In this document: positions 3,319 to 31,797 of the stretch, piece by piece
How the letters are laid out: each line of letters begins with the position of its first letter
How positions within the stretch are numbered: the stretch's first letter is position 1
Source: a virus
IMG/VR virus record: IMGVR_UViG_3300010403_000012
Coordinates: 1-43,231 of that record
Reading direction: 5' to 3' (one strand)
DNA length: 43,231 bases
Made by a program: the position numbers and the translations under genes
The notes under the pieces: model-generated
What the model saw: the letters and a program-made list of their open reading frames with translations, nothing else
Databases searched by the model: none
What the model was told of the DNA's origin: nothing

Positions 3319-3626
3319 CCTACTTCACCGTCGAAGAAGCAGCCGAGAAGCTGCACATGGGCCTAGACGCCGTGCGGCGGAAGGCTGCCGAGGGTAGCAT
3401 CCCGGCGCGCAAGGTGGGGCGGCGGTGGCTGTTCCATCCGGATCTGCTGGACAAATACATGAGGAACGAGTGGCAATCTATAAAAGAACGCCCGGGGGGC
3501 CGTGGTGGGTTCGAATCACAGTACGCGGCAAGTCTATTCGCAGAAGCGCCGGAACATGCGACCGACAGAAAGCCGAGGAATTCGAAACCGCGCTCCGCGA
3601 CAGATACTGGCGGCAAACGAAACTAG
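3315..3626 (+). CDS. xis: Excisionase-like helix-turn-helix protein
   Basis: A 103 aa protein. Residues 1-50 form a MerR/excisionase-type winged helix (FTVEEAAEKLHMGLDAVRRKAAEG...RKVGRRWLFHPDLLDKYM), the fold used to bind and bend attachment-site DNA and direct prophage excision. It starts with GTG in a GTGA overlap. The last third, after residue 52, is Arg/Pro/Ser-rich and lies entirely inside the integrase gene in another frame. Directly upstream of an integrase this is the expected excisionase or directionality factor; a simple regulator of int is the alternative. Confidence 0.75.
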   Translation: MTYFTVEEAAEKLHMGLDAVRRKAAEGSIPARKVGRRWLFHPDLLDKYMRNEWQSIKERPGGRGGFESQYAASLFAEAPEHATDRKPRNSKPRSATDTGGKRN

Positions 3627-4519
3627 GCGAGACGATCTACACGTGGGAAGAAGCGGTTGAGCGCTACAAGAAGGACGCGGCCTGGCGAGAATCCACGAGG
3701 AAAACAAATGAATTTTCCCTCACATTTTTCGAGCGTCTCAATCCGATTGCAATTACAGCCATCAACGCCGAAGTCATACGAGCCGCAAGAGATTTCGTTG
3801 AGCGATCGCAGACTCAATCTTCCGCCAACCGAATCATGGCTGTGTTTCGCGGAGTCCTTCGGGCTTGTGTCAGATGGGAGTGGCTTAAGCACGCACCTTC
3901 TGTACCTATGGTGCACATACCGCAAACAGAAATTGCGCCGCTTGACTCTGAGCAATGTTCGCGACTTATCTCTCAGTTGCCAGAACATCTAAAGGGTCCG
4001 GTGATGTTCTCAGTTTTAACAGGCCTCCGCATGTCTAACACACGCGACCTCACGTGGGACCGCGTGGATCTCGAGGAAGGTCATGTGACAATTCCAGCGA
4101 GCCAGTACAAGACGAAGCGCGATCAGCGCTTCCCTCTATCTACTCAAGCCGTGGAATTGCTGTCTAGGATTCCACGCCGCGAAGGAAGGGTATTTCTGTA
4201 TGAAGGACGACCAATCACAGGGAAGCTGGGAGCGAGGGCCTTTAGGAAAGCTCGCAAACGCGCAGGGCTGGATGGGCTCCGATGGCATGATCTACGGCAC
4301 ACCTTCGCTTCTTGGGTTGCCCAGTCCGGCGCGAGTGACCGTGTACTCCAAGCGCTCGGTGGCTGGACCAGCCCCAAGATGGTGGCTCGCTATGCCCACC
4401 TGAAACCGTCTGACCTGCGTTCATATGTTGACGCAGTTGGCACTTTCGCTGTCACTGGACAAAAGCACAGCAAGACAAAACGAGCGAAAAAGCCTATAAA
4501 AACGGTGCCCTCTATCTGA
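3470..4519 (+). CDS. int: Tyrosine-recombinase integrase
   Basis: A 349 aa phage integrase. The catalytic set is visible: Arg187 in TGLRMSN, Lys near 214-216, His273 and Arg276 in WHDLRH, Trp299 in the second-His position (GGWT), and the nucleophile Tyr308 in MVARYAHL. The N-terminus (AIYKR...WWVRITVRGK) is the arm-binding type. GTG at 3470 is chosen because homologues begin MAIYKR; a 15-codon extension to 3425 is possible. The gene overlaps the excisionase-like gene by 157 bases. Its stop codon lies inside the tRNA-like attP core, so the last six residues and the stop are read from the attachment core. It catalyses integration into and excision from the host tRNA-Thr gene. Confidence 0.93.
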   Translation: MAIYKRTPGGPWWVRITVRGKSIRRSAGTCDRQKAEEFETALRDRYWRQTKLGETIYTWEEAVERYKKDAAWRESTRKTNEFSLTFFERLNPIAITAINAEVIRAARDFVERSQTQSSANRIMAVFRGVLRACVRWEWLKHAPSVPMVHIPQTEIAPLDSEQCSRLISQLPEHLKGPVMFSVLTGLRMSNTRDLTWDRVDLEEGHVTIPASQYKTKRDQRFPLSTQAVELLSRIPRREGRVFLYEGRPITGKLGARAFRKARKRAGLDGLRWHDLRHTFASWVAQSGASDRVLQALGGWTSPKMVARYAHLKPSDLRSYVDAVGTFAVTGQKHSKTKRAKKPIKTVPSI

Positions 4520-16417: not shown

Positions 16418-17052
16418 CCCACGCGCACCTGCATCGGGCCACCGGAAATATTCGTGGCCTTCTGGAGCTTCTGGTACGCGTCGAGCGCGGCGCCGTAGAA
16501 GCCCTGCCACGTGCCGATCTGCTCGGAGTCCTTGATCAGCGGAGCGGCCTCGAGGAGCGCGCCGTAGAGCAGGAGATCAGGCGCGTTGAGGATGAGATAG
16601 TGCGCAACGGCATCAGCGCCACCAGTTGAGTAGCTGCGAAGCGCCGTGGGCTTGGCGTAGTACGTGCCGCCAACCGTGAAGTTGGACGACGGGTACGGGC
16701 CGTATTCGAAGTTCGCGCCGTTCCGCGCAATCAGGTTCGGGATGCCGCTTGAGCCACTACGCGGGTAGTCGTCGTATAGCTGCGAGAGCCCAACCGGCGA
16801 CAAGCGCCGGGTCGGCGTCATCGAGATATAGACATTCTTCCACGCGAGGAACCCGGACGGAACCGCGCTCACGCCTGCGGACATCGCGGTTGAGTACGAG
16901 GTCTCAAGCCACGGGCCCCAGTTCTTGGGGTCTCGGAAGAACCTCTCCTCCCAGTTCTGCACGAAGACGGGGATCTGCGAGGTCAAATCACCGCGCGATA
17001 GCCAGTCAGCGACATTCGCTAGGAGTGAGGTGTAGCCCGTGGTAACAGCCAT
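16414..17052 (-). CDS. Tail adaptor protein (gp4 / SU10-adaptor-like)
   Basis: A 212 aa protein with the adaptor pattern at its N-terminus (LLANVADWLSRGDLTSQIPVF...WEERFFRDPK), an aromatic beta middle (GGTYYAKPTALRSYSTGG) and C-terminal helices (NAPDLLLYGALLEAAPLIKD) seen in head-tail adaptors that bind the portal. It should form a ring under the portal and attach the tail. It sits downstream of the capsid genes, separated from them by the sugar-transferase cassette. Confidence 0.78.
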   Translation of the reverse strand: MAVTTGYTSLLANVADWLSRGDLTSQIPVFVQNWEERFFRDPKNWGPWLETSYSTAMSAGVSAVPSGFLAWKNVYISMTPTRRLSPVGLSQLYDDYPRSGSSGIPNLIARNGANFEYGPYPSSNFTVGGTYYAKPTALRSYSTGGADAVAHYLILNAPDLLLYGALLEAAPLIKDSEQIGTWQGFYGAALDAYQKLQKATNISGGPMQVRVG

Positions 17053-17612
17053 TAGTTAGCCTTTTGTCCGCTGGTGTCTTCGACCAGTCCGCGAGCGTAG
17101 AGAACCACGTAGAAGTCTTCGTCCCCCGTCACCTGGAACGTTTGCAGGTCGAAGCGGGCCATGAGGCGCGGCAGCCACCACTCAGGTGGACGCTGCAGGA
17201 TGTGCGCGTTCCGCCCATCGGACAGGACCTTCTTGGCAGGTCCCGTGCTGATCGAGATGAACGCAACCGCCTCCGTAAGGCGCATCAGGTGATCCAACAC
17301 CTCGTCGATGTTTTCCGGCTCTATATGCTCCAGCACGTCAATGCAGGCGATCATCTCGGCAGGTACTGGGGGCGAGGAGTACGCCTCCACGCACGGGTCG
17401 TAGGCCTGGTACTTGAACTTGTGATTCACGCCTTTCAGCGAGCGGCCAAGCGACAGGTTCGACCCGCAGCCATAGTCGAGCAGGTGATTCACCTCTAGCT
17501 TGTTCAGCATCTCGACGATGAGAGGCGCGTACTTCGCGCCTGTGACGCCGTAGTTGCCCTTCGCGTGCAACTCTTCCTGCGTCTTTTTGTACTCGTCCGT
17601 TATGAGAGCCAT
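17052..17612 (-). CDS. SAM-dependent methyltransferase
   Basis: A 186 aa class I methyltransferase. Motif I is LLDYGCGSN (44-52), followed by an acidic position near YDPCVEAY and CIDVLEHIEP (about 88-96). This resembles bacterial methyltransferases that act on sugars or small molecules rather than DNA. ATG at 17612 overlaps the end of the glycosyltransferase gene by 13 bases. A much longer frame to 17816 lies inside that gene and is a shadow. Probably part of the same sugar-modifying cassette. Confidence 0.78.
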   Translation of the reverse strand: MALITDEYKKTQEELHAKGNYGVTGAKYAPLIVEMLNKLEVNHLLDYGCGSNLSLGRSLKGVNHKFKYQAYDPCVEAYSSPPVPAEMIACIDVLEHIEPENIDEVLDHLMRLTEAVAFISISTGPAKKVLSDGRNAHILQRPPEWWLPRLMARFDLQTFQVTGDEDFYVVLYARGLVEDTSGQKAN

Positions 17613-18202
17613 TCTTTCCTCAAGCCCTTGTAGTGCCACACGAGCGCGTCCGAGGTGTCCTCGCGGCTCTTTGGCGTCCAGTTGTAGCGATTCGCGTCGA
17701 GCTCCAAGACCGAGTAGCCACCGCGCTTTGCGGTAACAGCCACGGCCATCTGGTCGCCCCACCAGCGTTGGAACCTGTCCGGCAGTGCGCGGCAGACATT
17801 CGCCGACACCTTCCAAAAGTCAGTTCCCGTCGAGAACATCACGCCCGTGTTGTACGGACAGACCTCGGCCATGTTCACGCCGTCGAAGTGGCAAGCCACC
17901 GTGCGCCGCGTGAGCGCGACATCAAAGTCCCAGCCCACGTTCAATGGCGCTTTCACCACGCAGTCGTCGTCGAGGATCAGCATCCGCGTGTGCGGATAGG
18001 CCGCGAGGTGCTCAAGGCGGAAGGTCATCATCCGCCCGTCATAGGGACGGCGGATCACCTCGTCGGCTATGCAGTCCGTGTCAAGGTCCGACATCTGCAC
18101 GAGCTTCACGCCCGGGTGATGCCGGCGCACCGACTCCACCATCAGCTTGGCCCAAGGCCGGTCGTTACCGACTAGGACGAATGAACACTCCTTGATGCTC
18201 AA
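17600..18202 (-). CDS. Glycosyltransferase-like protein (GT-A type)
   Basis: A 200 aa protein with a GT-A layout: FVLVGNDRPWAKLMVESVRR at the N-terminus, then LILDDDCVV with an acidic DDD triad at 78-80 that would bind Mn and nucleotide sugar, and later YNTGVMFSTG and GDQMAVAV, typical of GT8-like enzymes. Acceptor and donor are unknown. It is coupled to the next GT8-like gene by a 4-base overlap. Confidence 0.72.
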   Translation of the reverse strand: MSIKECSFVLVGNDRPWAKLMVESVRRHHPGVKLVQMSDLDTDCIADEVIRRPYDGRMMTFRLEHLAAYPHTRMLILDDDCVVKAPLNVGWDFDVALTRRTVACHFDGVNMAEVCPYNTGVMFSTGTDFWKVSANVCRALPDRFQRWWGDQMAVAVTAKRGGYSVLELDANRYNWTPKSREDTSDALVWHYKGLRKEWLS

Positions 18203-18864
18203 GCACGTTTCTTCAATCGCTCATAGACGTGCTTCGCATGGACGCTGTTCGCCATGAGGTCAGCCCATGAGCAGGTCCGCACCATGTCCTTGAACGCCGC
18301 GACCCAAGGGCCGTCATGGTAGCCGCGCGTCTCCGCGTGGCACGGCACGCCCTGTGTGTAGTGGTATAGCGAAGCGCCCGTGGGGTCGGTGTACCCCACG
18401 GCAGCGTTCCACTCAGCCGGGAATCGCCCGATCTGCATCCCCGCGCCGTGGTCAGTCCAAGCGAAGTCGAGCAGCTGGTGCGACTCGTCATCGACGTAGG
18501 CCGGAGTGAGCACCTTGCAGTTGTCGCAGTTGAACAGCATCGCCGACGCCCACTCGAAGCGCGCCTGGTCCTGGTTCACCAGCACCGGTGATGCGTAGTC
18601 GTCGTTATCGAACAACTCCGCGATGTCGCCCGTGACGACCATGTCGGCGTCGAGGAACAGCGCGCGGCCACGAAAGCCGCATAGCCATGGGACGATGAAG
18701 CGCGAGTACGTGAACTGCGTGAGGCCGCGACGCTTGACCGGAAGGGTCTTCAGCATCAGCGGCGTCATCGCCACGGGCTCGGAAGAATTCTGATAGATCG
18801 AGTGCTGCAGCACGCTGTAGGCGAGCGGCTGGCGCTCATCCACTCCGACGAAGATACGGAGCAT
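18199..18864 (-). CDS. GT8-like glycosyltransferase
   Basis: A 221 aa enzyme: IFVGVDERQPLAYSVLQHSI at the start, ALFLDADMVVTGD with the DxD motif (D72, D74), then SAMLFNCDNC and a C-terminal His-rich block (YHYTQGVPCHAETRGYHD) that fits a GT8-family metal site. It likely transfers a hexose from a nucleotide sugar; the target is unknown. It lies in the cassette between capsid-associated and adaptor genes. Confidence 0.78.
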   Translation of the reverse strand: MLRIFVGVDERQPLAYSVLQHSIYQNSSEPVAMTPLMLKTLPVKRRGLTQFTYSRFIVPWLCGFRGRALFLDADMVVTGDIAELFDNDDYASPVLVNQDQARFEWASAMLFNCDNCKVLTPAYVDDESHQLLDFAWTDHGAGMQIGRFPAEWNAAVGYTDPTGASLYHYTQGVPCHAETRGYHDGPWVAAFKDMVRTCSWADLMANSVHAKHVYERLKKRA

Positions 18865-22984: not shown

Positions 22985-23314
22985 CTACCTTCTGCTGTGA
23001 TAGCCAGCTGAGAATTCAGCTGGCGATTGGCGGCGCTTCTCATCTTCAAGCGCCTTCTCGAATCTCTTTCGCTCCTCGAGCCTGTGCAGGACGACCTTGC
23101 CATCCCGCACTGCTTGCTCAAGATGCCCCTTGACGCTCGTGAGCACCTTGAGCATGAGCCGGCATTCGTGAACGCCGGCTTTGTCACGAATCGGGGCTTC
23201 CTCGATGTTCGCGATGATCTTCGCGCGCAGCGTTTCGAACGCCTCGTTGAGCAGTGGGTCTGTGACCAGCTTCTCCGCGCGGTTGGCGCGCTCGATGGAT
23301 TGCTCGGGGGTCAC
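22985..23314 (-). CDS. Hypothetical helical protein of the head region
   Basis: A 109 aa protein, nearly all helical and charged (SIERANRAEKLVTDPLLNEAFETLRAKI in part). It lies between portal and scaffold, overlapping the portal stop by 4 bases. Similar small proteins are common in this position in SU10-capsid podoviruses; function unknown. Confidence 0.65.
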   Translation of the reverse strand: MTPEQSIERANRAEKLVTDPLLNEAFETLRAKIIANIEEAPIRDKAGVHECRLMLKVLTSVKGHLEQAVRDGKVVLHRLEERKRFEKALEDEKRRQSPAEFSAGYHSRR

Positions 23315-27401: not shown

Positions 27402-27451
27402 TTCGTTACGACTGCCTTACGGCTTGGTCGCCTAGCTAATAAATAGGTACT

Positions 27452-27584
27452 GCGCGAGATGCCGGGACTCGAACCTTAGAGCCGCGCAGGACTTCCTGCC
27501 GCTCGCGGAGCCACCACTTAAACCGTCCCATCACTGGGTAGGTGGTCTAGTCATCACCCCGAACCCACGGGGGTCATCTCGCGC
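27452..27584 (-). ncRNA. Candidate 133-nt structured RNA or packaging-site element
   Basis: Read on the minus strand, a perfect 10-bp closing stem GCGCGAGATG/CATCTCGCGC encloses about 113 bases with further hairpins: ACCCC/GGGGT, CCCA-GTGA-TGGG with a GNRA loop, ACCAC/GTGGT around it, and GCAGG-AAGT-CCTGC. Next to the closing stem is GGTTCGAGTCC, which looks like a tRNA T loop. It lies 50 bases upstream of the small terminase gene with no reading frame. It does not fold as a full tRNA. It could be an untranslated regulatory RNA or the DNA site bound by the small terminase. Confidence 0.5.
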
Positions 27585-27633
27585 TATGCCCGTTTTCGCC
27601 GGGCCAGTTATCCCAATAGCTCATCAGGGAGGA

Positions 27634-27677
27634 CTATCCGGTCTAACGCTATCCGGACGCGGGCGGGCGCTACCCGG
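27634..27677 (+). repeat. Three CTAYCCGG direct repeats upstream of terS region
   Basis: CTATCCGG occurs at 27634-27641 and 27649-27656, with a variant CTACCCGG at 27670-27677. The first two start 15 bases apart and the third 21 bases on. They fall in the non-coding stretch between the small terminase gene and the PASTA-domain gene, beside the structured element. Iterated short sites beside a small terminase gene are candidates for packaging recognition or for a regulator. Confidence 0.45.
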
Positions 27678-27683
27678 CCATGC

Positions 27684-28313
27684 TCAGTGCAGTAGGAGGA
27701 ACTCTTCGTCCTCGTCTTCAGCCGCGCGCAGAGCCAGCAGGAGCCGTAGCTCAGCATTGGCCGACTCGCTCGCGTAGGTCTTCGCAATCGCCTCTCGCGT
27801 GCTGTCTGCAAGCGCCGCAAGGTCATCGGGCACCGATATCGTCGGCGCCTTGATGGCGATGGGCTTGACCTTGCCAAGCGCCACGGCCTTGGGCAATGCG
27901 CGTTCAACAATCTCGTCGGCCTTGTTCCTCGCCGCCTTCTCAGCAAGCGCCTTTGCCTGCTCGAGGATGCTGGCGACTTCTTCCTCACTATCGGCCTCGA
28001 AGATCTGACCTTCGATGCGGATCGTGTAGCGGCGAGTGCGCGGGCGACGCGGCCGACCGGCACCACTCGATGCTGCGCCAAGGCTCACCGTAATCGTCAC
28101 TGCAGAGCCGAGCACCGCAGTGCTGCCGCCCGTGGGGGACTGCGAGATCACAAGGCCTGCAGCCACACTGCTCGAGTACGCCGTGGCGACACTCGTCGTG
28201 AAGCCGGCGGCGCCGATGTCAGTCGTCGCCTGCGCCTGGGTCTCGCCCACCACGTTCGGCACAGTGCCCGTAGGGGCGGCTGCGTCGATGTTGAGTAGCA
28301 GCGGGAGAAGCAT
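27684..28313 (-). CDS. PASTA-domain virion-type protein
   Basis: A 209 aa protein. Residues about 17-80 form one PASTA domain (VPNVVGETQAQATTDIGAAG...VISQSPTGGSTAVLGSAVTITVSLG), a fold best known for binding peptidoglycan in kinases and penicillin-binding proteins and also found in phage structural proteins. The remainder is a basic patch followed by long helices. No signal peptide. It is the last gene of the surface-protein group, so it may sit on the virion and touch the cell wall. Confidence 0.72.
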   Translation of the reverse strand: MLLPLLLNIDAAAPTGTVPNVVGETQAQATTDIGAAGFTTSVATAYSSSVAAGLVISQSPTGGSTAVLGSAVTITVSLGAASSGAGRPRRPRTRRYTIRIEGQIFEADSEEEVASILEQAKALAEKAARNKADEIVERALPKAVALGKVKPIAIKAPTISVPDDLAALADSTREAIAKTYASESANAELRLLLALRAAEDEDEEFLLLH

Positions 28314-28942
28314 CAGCCCACTCCGAGTCCCGCCAGTTGCTTGACTGTTACGCCGCCAGCAACGCCATTCGTCCAGCTATCGATCTTGATCGTGCCGATC
28401 GAGCTGTCCGAGACGAGATAGAACCCGCCCTGCCCCGTCGCGATGTCCACACCGGTTGTGTTGATGTTGTAGGTCGTGCCGTTCACGATCAGGTTAACGT
28501 TCGTGCTCGACGTGCGCTGCAGGCTCATCGTGAGCGCGACCGACGCGGTGTCGATGGTCGGGCTCAACGACGGCGTAGAGACGAACGAGCCGTTCGACGC
28601 GACGCGTACCGCTGTCACCACCTGACCGGTGAGCTGCGAGGCGCCGATGCGCGCTTCGAAGCCCTTGTTGCTCGACCCTGCGCACGTCAGCACTGCAATC
28701 GCAGCCGAACCCGGCACCGTGGCGAATGCGCCCACGGGGATGACGATCTCGGACTTCTGCGAGGAGTCCGTGCCGTTGTACATCGCGAACGGCGCTTTGA
28801 AGTTCGCCGTGAGCGCGCAGAAGCCAGACCCGTCAATGCCAAGGTCAGCGAGCGATTCGCCCGAGCCCGTGTCGGCTAGCTGCCAGTTCGAGTCGTGCGT
28901 GGCTAGCGTCGTCGCTGAGCCGGTAAAATTGTCGGTTGCCAT
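28313..28942 (-). CDS. Beta-sandwich (LamG-like) virion protein
   Basis: A 209 aa Ser/Thr/Gly/Ala-rich protein beginning MATDNFTGSATTLATHDSNW, typical of phage proteins with a concanavalin/LamG-like beta sandwich, with regular alternation of strands (KSEIVIPVG, AVLTCAG, GFYLVSDSSIGTIKIDSW). It is likely a virion surface or carbohydrate-contact protein. It overlaps the PASTA gene by one base. Confidence 0.65.
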   Translation of the reverse strand: MATDNFTGSATTLATHDSNWQLADTGSGESLADLGIDGSGFCALTANFKAPFAMYNGTDSSQKSEIVIPVGAFATVPGSAAIAVLTCAGSSNKGFEARIGASQLTGQVVTAVRVASNGSFVSTPSLSPTIDTASVALTMSLQRTSSTNVNLIVNGTTYNINTTGVDIATGQGGFYLVSDSSIGTIKIDSWTNGVAGGVTVKQLAGLGVG

Positions 28943-30052
28943 CTACAGCGGTCCTATCGTCGTGACGACAGTGTTGGTGTCGTCGTACTCGACGAGGTAC
29001 TTGCCCGCGACCGAGGACCAATGGCCCTTGTTGATACGCACTTGGCGCGAGGTGCCAGACAGCTGCGTGAGCGGCTGGATCACGCCGACTTTCGTGGAAG
29101 CGCCCACCGTGGCCGCATCGATCATCTCCACGCGGCGCTGCGCGCCGGTAGTCGTGCGCCGCGACATGAAATGGTCGTCCATGTAGAGCTTGCACTGCTC
29201 CCAGGCGCCGTAGACGAATGCGGAGTTGCCGAGGTAGTTCTGGTAGATGAAGTATCGGAACGGATTGCTATGATCGCCCGATCCACGGAACAGCACGTTC
29301 GTGTACGTACGCGACCACGTGTTAGACGGGTTCGCAACTTCCGTCACCTTCACCCGGAAGGTGCCGTTGCTGGTCCCTGCCGGACTGTTCTCTTTGAAGA
29401 ACGTCTCAATGCGGAACCACGCATTGCGAATCATCTTCACCGGCCCGCTCGAATAGTCATCAGGCGGGGAGAAGTACTGAGCCCAGTCAGCCGCTCCCGT
29501 AACAAAGCCGGCTAGGAACACGTTGTCGTTCGCCGTGACGTGCGACATGTACGCGCTCGGGTCGTTGCCATCGACAATTTGCGGATTGCCGCTGCCGGCA
29601 TCGTCGTTCGTCAACCATCGGTTCACCTTCCACTGGAGCGTGAGCGCGTCCATGTGGGGGTAGTCCCAGTAGTAGTAGGTGCTGGTGTAGAGCTCTTGCC
29701 AGCCGGAAGCGCCCCAGTCGTATTGCTGTGTGCCGCGAGCATTGCCGCCATTGATGTCCGACTCGCCGCGCGCGGTGCCGTCGTACAGCAGGGACTTGGT
29801 CCGGTTGAGCGAGCGAACGTTGCTGTAATACCAGTCCGCCACGGTTGAACCGGAGAGCTTCGTCCAGCCACTGCGCGAGAACGCTGTGTTGTTTGTGCCC
29901 GATTCGATTGCGCCCGTGAGGCCGCCCAGGAACTCGTTGTCCGGTAGCTCCGTGCTCGAGACGTTGCTCGTGAACGTGTACAGATCGCCGTCAGCGGGCG
30001 TGCTGCCCCCGCCACCGGATGAGCCGGAGGTACGCAGTACGAGCCGGCCCAT
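28943..30052 (-). CDS. Jelly-roll virion protein, possible polysaccharide-binding
   Basis: A 369 aa all-beta protein with a short N-terminus (MGRLVLRTSGSSGGGGS) and a jelly-roll body containing WYYSNVRSLNRTKSLLYDG, YYYWDYPHMDALTLQWKVNRW, RNAWFRIETFFKENS and EQCKLYMDDHFMSR. This layout resembles carbohydrate-binding modules and jelly-roll polysaccharide lyases. Catalytic residues cannot be identified, so binding is the safer call. It follows the large surface protein at once. Confidence 0.65.
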   Translation of the reverse strand: MGRLVLRTSGSSGGGGSTPADGDLYTFTSNVSSTELPDNEFLGGLTGAIESGTNNTAFSRSGWTKLSGSTVADWYYSNVRSLNRTKSLLYDGTARGESDINGGNARGTQQYDWGASGWQELYTSTYYYWDYPHMDALTLQWKVNRWLTNDDAGSGNPQIVDGNDPSAYMSHVTANDNVFLAGFVTGAADWAQYFSPPDDYSSGPVKMIRNAWFRIETFFKENSPAGTSNGTFRVKVTEVANPSNTWSRTYTNVLFRGSGDHSNPFRYFIYQNYLGNSAFVYGAWEQCKLYMDDHFMSRRTTTGAQRRVEMIDAATVGASTKVGVIQPLTQLSGTSRQVRINKGHWSSVAGKYLVEYDDTNTVVTTIGPL

Positions 30053-30054
30053 GG

Positions 30055-31797
30055 CTAGAAGTGGTAGAAGTTGTAATCGACCGAGGAGCCTGGGGCCGTG
30101 CTGCCAGCTCGCGTCGTTGTGAATGCGATGCTGATAGCGGTTCCGAAGGCGACGCCGCTAGGGAACGTGACGTTTGCAGCGGAGCTCGCCGGAATTCCGA
30201 ACGACAGCTTCGGCGTCGTCGTGCCGAGCGTCACTGAGCCCGTCGCGAGGTCGAAGATCTGGCAATACGCAACTGACGCGTTCGGGTTGTAGATGTAGTA
30301 GCCGTACAGCTGGCCCGCAGACGCTTTGACAGACGTCACCGTCGTCGTGATCGAGCCAGCAGCAGTGTTAAGGCCACCCTGCGTGTGCGGCTGCTGCGTG
30401 ACGATGAGTTTGCGGTCAAGCGTCATGCGCGCCGCACCGGCGTCACCCTCGTCTACCGAGTCAGTGCCAGTCTCATCCGCCTGGAAGCCGGACATTGACA
30501 CGCGCGTCGTCGCGGGCGTAAAGGCCGCATCGTCAACGATGTTGCCCCAGTTGGTGATGTTCGTGAGCGTCGAGCACGTCGTCACCGTGCCGATGGTCGA
30601 GTCCGTGGCGGTGACCACGCGCTGCGTCTGCGCACCCGAGGCGCCAGTGCCGGTCGAGGCTGCCGTGCCCGCGTAGTGCGGCGTGACGCCCAAGTAGCCC
30701 GTGTTGACGCTACGCAGCCGGTCCCACGTCGTGCCGTTGTAGCCCATGCCGAACGTCAGGCACATCTCCTGATCGTTCTCGTTCGTCATCGCATCGCCCG
30801 GGCGCTGTGCCGAGCCCTTGGTGACGTGCGCCTTGTACATCACCTGGATGCGCAGGCTGGTCGTGAGCGTGCCGCCGTTCGTGTAAACGAGGCGGAAGTA
30901 CCGAGCCTGCACCGGGAGCGAGATCAGCTTGCCAGTCGTCGCCGCGATGGTGAACGTGTCGGTGTGATCCCAGTTCGTGTTGTCGGAGCTCTGCTGCAAC
31001 GACAAGCCATCGGTGGCCGAGGCGTGGGAACTGAAGACGTTGATCTGGATGGTCGAGAAGTCCGACACATCCTCGCCCGTGCCGGTGAAGGTCGCAGCAC
31101 CCGCGAGGTTCGACGTGGTGCTGTTTGCCGTCGAGATGAGCGTGTCGCCGATGACGTACATCGCGCGGCGCACGCTGATCGCGAGGATGCCGCCGTCGCC
31201 AGAGTCGATGAGATCCCTGGTCGAGCTATACGCACCGACAATCGGGATGCCCTCGGCCGTGCCGAGCGTGATGGCGGCGTCGTCTACCTGGCCGGCGATA
31301 CCGCCAGCACCGATTGCCACCCACTGTGCGCCGTTCGCGTTGACTTTAGCTGGAGCGTAGTCGCCGACAGCCGGGGTGAGAGCTGAGAGCGTGTCTTGGC
31401 GGACGTAGAGCGGCGTTACGCCGGTGTCGGTCGCGCCCGCAACAGAATCAACCGCCTTACCAAGGCTCGTGGCGCTAGTCCCAGGAACGACGCTCGTGAC
31501 ATCCACGTCGCCGATGTCAACGCCAGAGTTGGCGGCAAGCTTGCCAATGGCATTCGTGCCAGCAGGCAAGGCGTTGCTGATAGCCGTGACGGCCGCAACC
31601 GTGGTAACCGTCGTGACCGTGCCAACGTTTAGCGTGCCAGTCTGGACAACAGGCAAGGGCGCGGCCGCGCTCACCTGCGTCGCCGAGTCAGCCGCACCGA
31701 ACTCGAGCTTGACCAGCTGGTGCTTAACGCCGCCGATGTCATCGGTCGCAATGACGTCGCCGCCAGAGCCTAGATTGAGCGTTGTGTTATCGGCCAC
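30055..31797 (-). CDS. Large virion surface / fibre protein
   Basis: A 580 aa Thr/Ser/Ala/Gly-rich beta protein. The N-terminus (LNLGSGGDVIATDDIGGVKHQLVKLEFG, in part) is a block widely shared by phage structural proteins. The rest has valine/threonine repeats (about 50-110), a beta-sandwich-like region (about 230-300) and a C-terminal beta domain. GTG at 31797 has AGG as ribosome site. It is the first gene after the late terminator, so it is the first late product. Role as fibre or decoration protein is by composition and N-terminal block. Confidence 0.7.
   Translation of the reverse strand: MADNTTLNLGSGGDVIATDDIGGVKHQLVKLEFGAADSATQVSAAAPLPVVQTGTLNVGTVTTVTTVAAVTAISNALPAGTNAIGKLAANSGVDIGDVDVTSVVPGTSATSLGKAVDSVAGATDTGVTPLYVRQDTLSALTPAVGDYAPAKVNANGAQWVAIGAGGIAGQVDDAAITLGTAEGIPIVGAYSSTRDLIDSGDGGILAISVRRAMYVIGDTLISTANSTTSNLAGAATFTGTGEDVSDFSTIQINVFSSHASATDGLSLQQSSDNTNWDHTDTFTIAATTGKLISLPVQARYFRLVYTNGGTLTTSLRIQVMYKAHVTKGSAQRPGDAMTNENDQEMCLTFGMGYNGTTWDRLRSVNTGYLGVTPHYAGTAASTGTGASGAQTQRVVTATDSTIGTVTTCSTLTNITNWGNIVDDAAFTPATTRVSMSGFQADETGTDSVDEGDAGAARMTLDRKLIVTQQPHTQGGLNTAAGSITTTVTSVKASAGQLYGYYIYNPNASVAYCQIFDLATGSVTLGTTTPKLSFGIPASSAANVTFPSGVAFGTAISIAFTTTRAGSTAPGSSVDYNFYHF

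Follow-up and report, generated by a model that had tools for sequence, protein, structure and literature searches.

We report a conserved block of ~245 nt that is probably a structured non-coding RNA, carried on the minus strand within the late (virion and packaging) transcript of a phage and acting as an accessory RNA. It lies at the same position in two related temperate podovirus-like phages, and comparison of the two copies shows a predicted fold kept by compensatory changes that fit the gene-sense strand. On present comparative evidence, this is a genuine, strand-assigned phage RNA under structural constraint, of which two members are known, and it represents a new family.

The DNA analyzed here (the window, 43,231 nt) is the IMG/VR virus record IMGVR_UViG_3300010403_000012, the ends of which overlap by exactly 123 nt, as in a circular assembly. 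It encodes an integrase (3425-4519), a major capsid protein, a scaffold-like protein, an SU10-type portal, TerL and a weakly recognized TerS, and judged from this gene content it is a temperate podovirus-like phage. The late genes are on the minus strand, and the conserved block has the same sense as these neighbors. A Lar-like restriction-alleviation protein is encoded at 1990-2607 on the plus strand (PHROG E 1e-13).

The space between TerS and the PASTA-domain gene (27402-27683) is taken up by the element. The original prediction described a 133-nt structured element just upstream of the small terminase gene; that stretch is real, although it is the 3' half of a larger conserved non-coding block at 27440-27684 (minus strand). 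Relative to the second phage, conservation starts at the stop codon of the upstream gene, ends after AGUACCUAUUUA at 27440, and fades before TerS. The gap is gene-free, as had been proposed: all six reading frames of the second copy hit stops across the block, the lone open frame of the window copy (plus strand) is interrupted in the other phage, and a six-frame check finds no coding frame shared by the two. No sigma-70-like promoter or terminator was found near the element, which is therefore probably part of the operon transcript. The features of the region are listed in Table 1.

Table 1. Features of the conserved RNA block and the adjoining late genes, in window coordinates.
Feature	Position	Strand	Basis or remark
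Whole conserved non-coding RNA block	27440..27684	-	From upstream-gene stop to before TerS start; ungapped 215/245 identity with L007:3733-3977
Domain first reported, closed by 10-bp helix H5	27452..27584	-	H5 = 27575-27584 with 27452-27461
H1, 5' hairpin right after upstream stop codon	27659..27683	-	RNAalifold; pairs invariant, outside the covariation evidence
H2, 11-nt loop	27636..27658	-	Three compensatory pairs, UCC/GGA to GUU/AAC
H3, long hairpin	27606..27635	-	Invariant pairs; rival pairings in window copy
H4, GCCCG-GCGAAAA-CGGGC hairpin	27588..27604	-	RNAalifold consensus; pairs invariant
H5, closing helix, 10 bp	27575-27584 with 27452-27461	-	Pair probability 0.99 in both copies
H7, long irregular arm bearing H8	27507..27560	-	Invariant pairs; the two copies have pair probability 0.91 and 0.95
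H8 with GNRA tetraloop (GUGA; L007 GUAA)	27527..27538	-	One compensatory pair, C-G to U-A
H9, hairpin	27480..27503	-	Four compensatory pairs
T-loop-like AGGUUCGAGUCCC	27464..27476	-	No T-stem in either copy; H6 mean pair probability 0.20 and 0.08
Conserved A/U-rich tail AGUACCUAUUUA, 3' of closing helix	27440..27451	-	Sequence conservation with L007
78-nt stretch identical in both phages	27537..27614	-	Longest exact match between the two genomes
Upstream gene, 209 aa, N-terminal PASTA domain	27684..28313	-	Pfam E 4e-13; stop codon touches the RNA
TerS-like gene, 106 aa	27081..27401	-	Weak match (E 7e-4) to PHROG terminase small subunit
TerL gene, 418 aa	25828..27084	-	Terminase_3

The second copy was found among 80 fetched loci of TerL relatives, in which IMGVR_UViG_3300020119_000039 (L007; a 42,441-nt record with ends overlapping by 127 nt) is the sole carrier; it has a complete copy at the same gene position. 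Its TerL is ~70-71% identical to that of the window, and the protein-coding stretches common to the two genomes are mostly 67-77% identical at the DNA level. The two elements align over 245 nt without gaps and with 30 differences (88% identity), and the next-longest exact match between the genomes after the one in Table 1 is 35 nt, in the capsid gene. The gene 3' of the element is TerS in the window, at a distance of 39 nt, and TerL in L007, at ~11 nt; the downstream ribosome-binding regions fall outside the conserved block and differ between the phages. Elsewhere in the structural region a methyltransferase-like gene is present (17052-17816 and 18199-18864, both minus strand, compared with L143:15008-16260), and in the L007 phage this gene and a neighbor stand in the opposite order. 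The PASTA domain of the window's upstream gene is seemingly missing from the shorter (150 aa) versions in L007 and in a further relative, L003, so that this late gene, of unknown role, would have acquired or shed a domain.

Several motifs described originally from the window alone are present. The closing repeat is a perfect 10-bp inverted repeat with arms at 27452-27461 (GCGCGAGATG) and 27575-27584 (CATCTCGCGC), and both the GNRA-type hairpin (CCCA-GUGA-UGGG) and the T-loop-like GGUUCGAGUCC are there, each readable as such on the minus strand only. Such repeats are not rare: the window has 10 that are perfect over at least 10 bp and fit within 150 nt. The 133-nt segment folds strongly given its composition (minus-strand z -3.12, plus-strand z -3.56), and in a G+C-corrected ranking of 3448 window positions the minus-strand element is 28th and the plus strand about 179th. 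The strongest folding in the window relative to G+C is at 22985-23314 on the minus strand, especially 23000-23230, with a residual of about -23 kcal/mol; the small gene in which it lies, flanked by those for portal and scaffold, is kept in L007 (56% at the amino acid level). Taken over all 245 nt, folding energy by itself does not stand out (z of -1.6 for the window copy and -0.6 for the L007 copy), and the decisive evidence is therefore comparative.

An RNAalifold consensus was built from the window and L007 copies, and the same two sequences were used for covariation. It contains 74 pairs, of which nine differ between the phages: eight are compensated on both sides (H2 has three of these, H9 four and the GNRA hairpin H8 one), the ninth, in the closing stem H5, shows a one-sided change from G-C to G-U, and none is broken. 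Together with the missing shared frame, this is the general pattern of a structured non-coding RNA, seen here in two sequences. The tetraloop change in H8 leaves it a GNRA loop. Paired letters co-vary between the two phages, by which measure the RNA fold itself is preserved. Comparison with related phages, the check put forward in the original prediction, is thus positive on the basis of two sequences.

The strand assignment follows from the same comparison. Two of the changed pairs (G-C to G-U and G-C to U-G) would be A-C mismatches if read on the opposite strand, and the consensus energy of -96.4 compares with a poorer -79.8 for that strand; with the compensatory changes, the conserved object is best read as a minus-strand RNA. 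In each of three null schemes 1000 mutants were made from the window copy. Placing the same substitutions at random positions gives a mean of -72.6 with 0/1000 as good as the observed energy, and random bases at the same positions give a mean of -84.1, again with 0/1000 reaching it; when the substitutions are permuted among positions the mean is -86.0 and three of the 1000 reach it. Sliding the 3' partners by 1-3 columns lowers the pairing from 100% to 34-47%.

Support is not uniform along the fold. None of the pairs in helices H1, H3, H4, H6 and H7 varies, and the covariation comes from one genome pair. In the window copy H2 and H3 face rival pairings (pair probability 0.01), and in the 5' half and near the T-loop motif the folds preferred by the two copies differ in part. 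A candidate H-type pseudoknot, in which the H3 loop (GCUAU) would pair with an AUAGC that precedes the closing helix, is in competition with the first two H5 pairs. A D-arm-like CCCC/GGGG hairpin was rejected, its pair probability being near zero in both copies in the registers tested.

The distribution of the element is narrow, with no third copy found beyond the window and L007. Searches of IMG/VR with four exact DNA patterns recovered L007 and otherwise chance matches only. None of ~25 syntenic relatives, collected by TerL, major capsid and portal searches, has the RNA apart from the window/L007 pair; across the TerL-portal region their genes are tightly packed, and the gap is seen only in these two phages. 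In L003, whose TerL is closer to that of the window (81%) than is the TerL of L007, the upstream gene overlaps the TerL start, leaving an empty site. The RNA is absent from three proteobacterial loci with TerL relatives in GTDB, and a covariance-model scan of the fetched loci gave nothing further. Covariance-model searches in samples of 369 and 398 genomes, and BLAST in a sample of 399, gave chance hits only, which is weak evidence as these samples held no known carrier; blastn showed no match among phages and only chance matches in plasmids. Literature searches on structured phage RNAs near terminase genes gave no account of the element. Given that close relatives such as L003 lack it, the RNA is not essential to this phage group; within the genomes covered, it appears to be accessory and rare, or under-sampled.

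The element also stands apart from known RNA families. Rfam 15 covariance models give no match at the gathering score anywhere in the window, only a chance snoRNA match (E 3.3) in the element region at E up to 10, and no match in the L007 copy; the Rfam model for phi29 pRNA matches neither the window nor the L007 copy. A hammerhead ribozyme, suggested by CUGAUGAG...CGAAA in the window copy, was rejected, as L007 reads CCGAUUA, which breaks the core, and there is no Rfam hammerhead match. A tmRNA was likewise set aside: tRNA-like ends with a tag reading frame are not seen, and ARAGORN reports none at default settings.

With regard to how such an RNA might act, we lean tentatively, at a little short of even confidence, to an accessory RNA acting in trans. 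It would be cut out of the late mRNA or kept stable within it, and would bind a protein or RNA partner rather than cover the next ribosome site. Partner binding is favored because conservation of sequence exceeds the demands of the helices, whereas the two phages differ in downstream gene, spacing and ribosome-binding region. Release from the late transcript is suggested by the same extra-helix conservation, by the accessory distribution and by the A/U-rich tail that follows the closing stem; this tail is a possible RNase E-type cleavage site.

A cis-acting structured leader, which would stay in the mRNA and control translation or decay of the downstream terminase cistrons, is a plausible reading to which we give somewhat less credence. 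In both phages the element directly precedes a packaging gene of the same operon and has no promoter or terminator of its own; but the ribosome-binding regions that it would govern lie outside the block and are different, and in most relatives these genes are expressed with no such element, L003 having no space at all between its upstream gene and TerL.

One special case of action in trans is a packaging RNA like phi29 pRNA, which would bind the portal or TerL and act in DNA packaging; it takes up only a small part of the weight we place on a trans-acting RNA, and is in itself unlikely. The element is beside terminase genes in both phages, the gene set is podovirus-like, and a short AGCU palindrome in the H3 loop of both copies could permit loop-loop contacts. 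Packaging of the phi29 type uses a different ATPase and no separate TerS, however, and here there are an ordinary TerL (Terminase_3), a TerS-like gene and an SU10-type portal; close relatives have no such RNA, and the element has no Rfam match. There is a similarly slim chance of a new class of packaging-associated RNA that works with a conventional terminase, in which a late-operon RNA would bind the terminase-portal machine or its substrate and modulate packaging independently of any phi29 pRNA. A mode of action other than trans, cis or DNA site is given about the same low probability.

The original prediction set an untranslated phage RNA beside a second reading, duplex DNA (a pac or cos site) bound by the small terminase. 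The first of these is borne out by the compensatory changes, including that in the GNRA hairpin, and by the strand-fixing G-U pairs; the second is disfavored, and we consider it improbable. Its attractions are that the element adjoins TerS in the window, that inverted repeats can serve as protein sites, and that the overlapping ends of both records are consistent with circular or permuted DNA. A cognate TerS and its site would be expected to vary together, whereas the element is 88% identical and the TerS-like proteins of the two phages are only ~39% identical over 54 aa. Moreover, TerS in L007 is at 28803-28976 of the full record, ~4 kb upstream of TerL and not adjacent to it, yet the element is kept beside TerL; and only in an RNA are changes of the G-C to G-U type and a tetraloop that stays GNRA meaningful.

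That the high identity stems from a recent exchange between the phages, and not from selection on RNA structure, is very improbable. The late operon is indeed mosaic, L003 being like L007 in its homolog of the gene at 30055-31797 of the window (83%) but like the window in TerL, and the three phages are mosaics of one another across neighboring late genes; but the differences within the element are clustered and compensated, a 78-nt run is invariant, and the same changes at random positions never fold jointly as well. Least credible is a degenerate or split tRNA, a tmRNA or a tRNA-derived attachment site: although the T-loop motif adjoins the closing stem, and the two phages share motif and 3' stem strand unchanged over 23 nt, the element is, as originally stated, not a full tRNA (no ARAGORN genes at default settings, only low-scoring and mutually inconsistent models at relaxed thresholds, two of five T-stem pairs in either copy, and a stem that no CCA follows), the integrase is 23 kb distant, and a 21-nt 3' segment was not found in 385 sampled genomes of one class.

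Likenesses to known phage RNAs are partial. Stable RNA species 1 and 2 of phage T4 are small structured RNAs of unknown function inside the T4 tRNA cluster, and the element is likewise a small structured phage RNA. It shares with tRNA and tmRNA a T-loop-like sequence beside a long closing helix, but has no T-stem, anticodon arm or CCA and no ARAGORN call. Like phi29 pRNA it is a small structured RNA of a podovirus-like genome, here in the neighborhood of packaging genes, but it differs in having no Rfam match, in lying beside a conventional TerL and a TerS-like gene, and in being missing from the closest relatives. GOLLD and ROOL are large structured RNAs of phages and prophages, of unknown function and often near tRNA islands, with many GOLLD members exceeding 800 nt (PMC12286853). 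As these are, the element is phage-encoded, non-coding and highly structured, but it is far smaller, is located in the late operon, has no Rfam match, and there is no tRNA in the window.

Few structured RNAs are known to us from phage morphogenesis operons, and phi29 pRNA is, to our knowledge, the only one with a clear role in DNA packaging. Given that it includes the longest identical stretch of the two genomes, adjoins the terminase genes and has no match among described families, the element is a well-defined candidate for an unrecognized RNA function late in phage infection.
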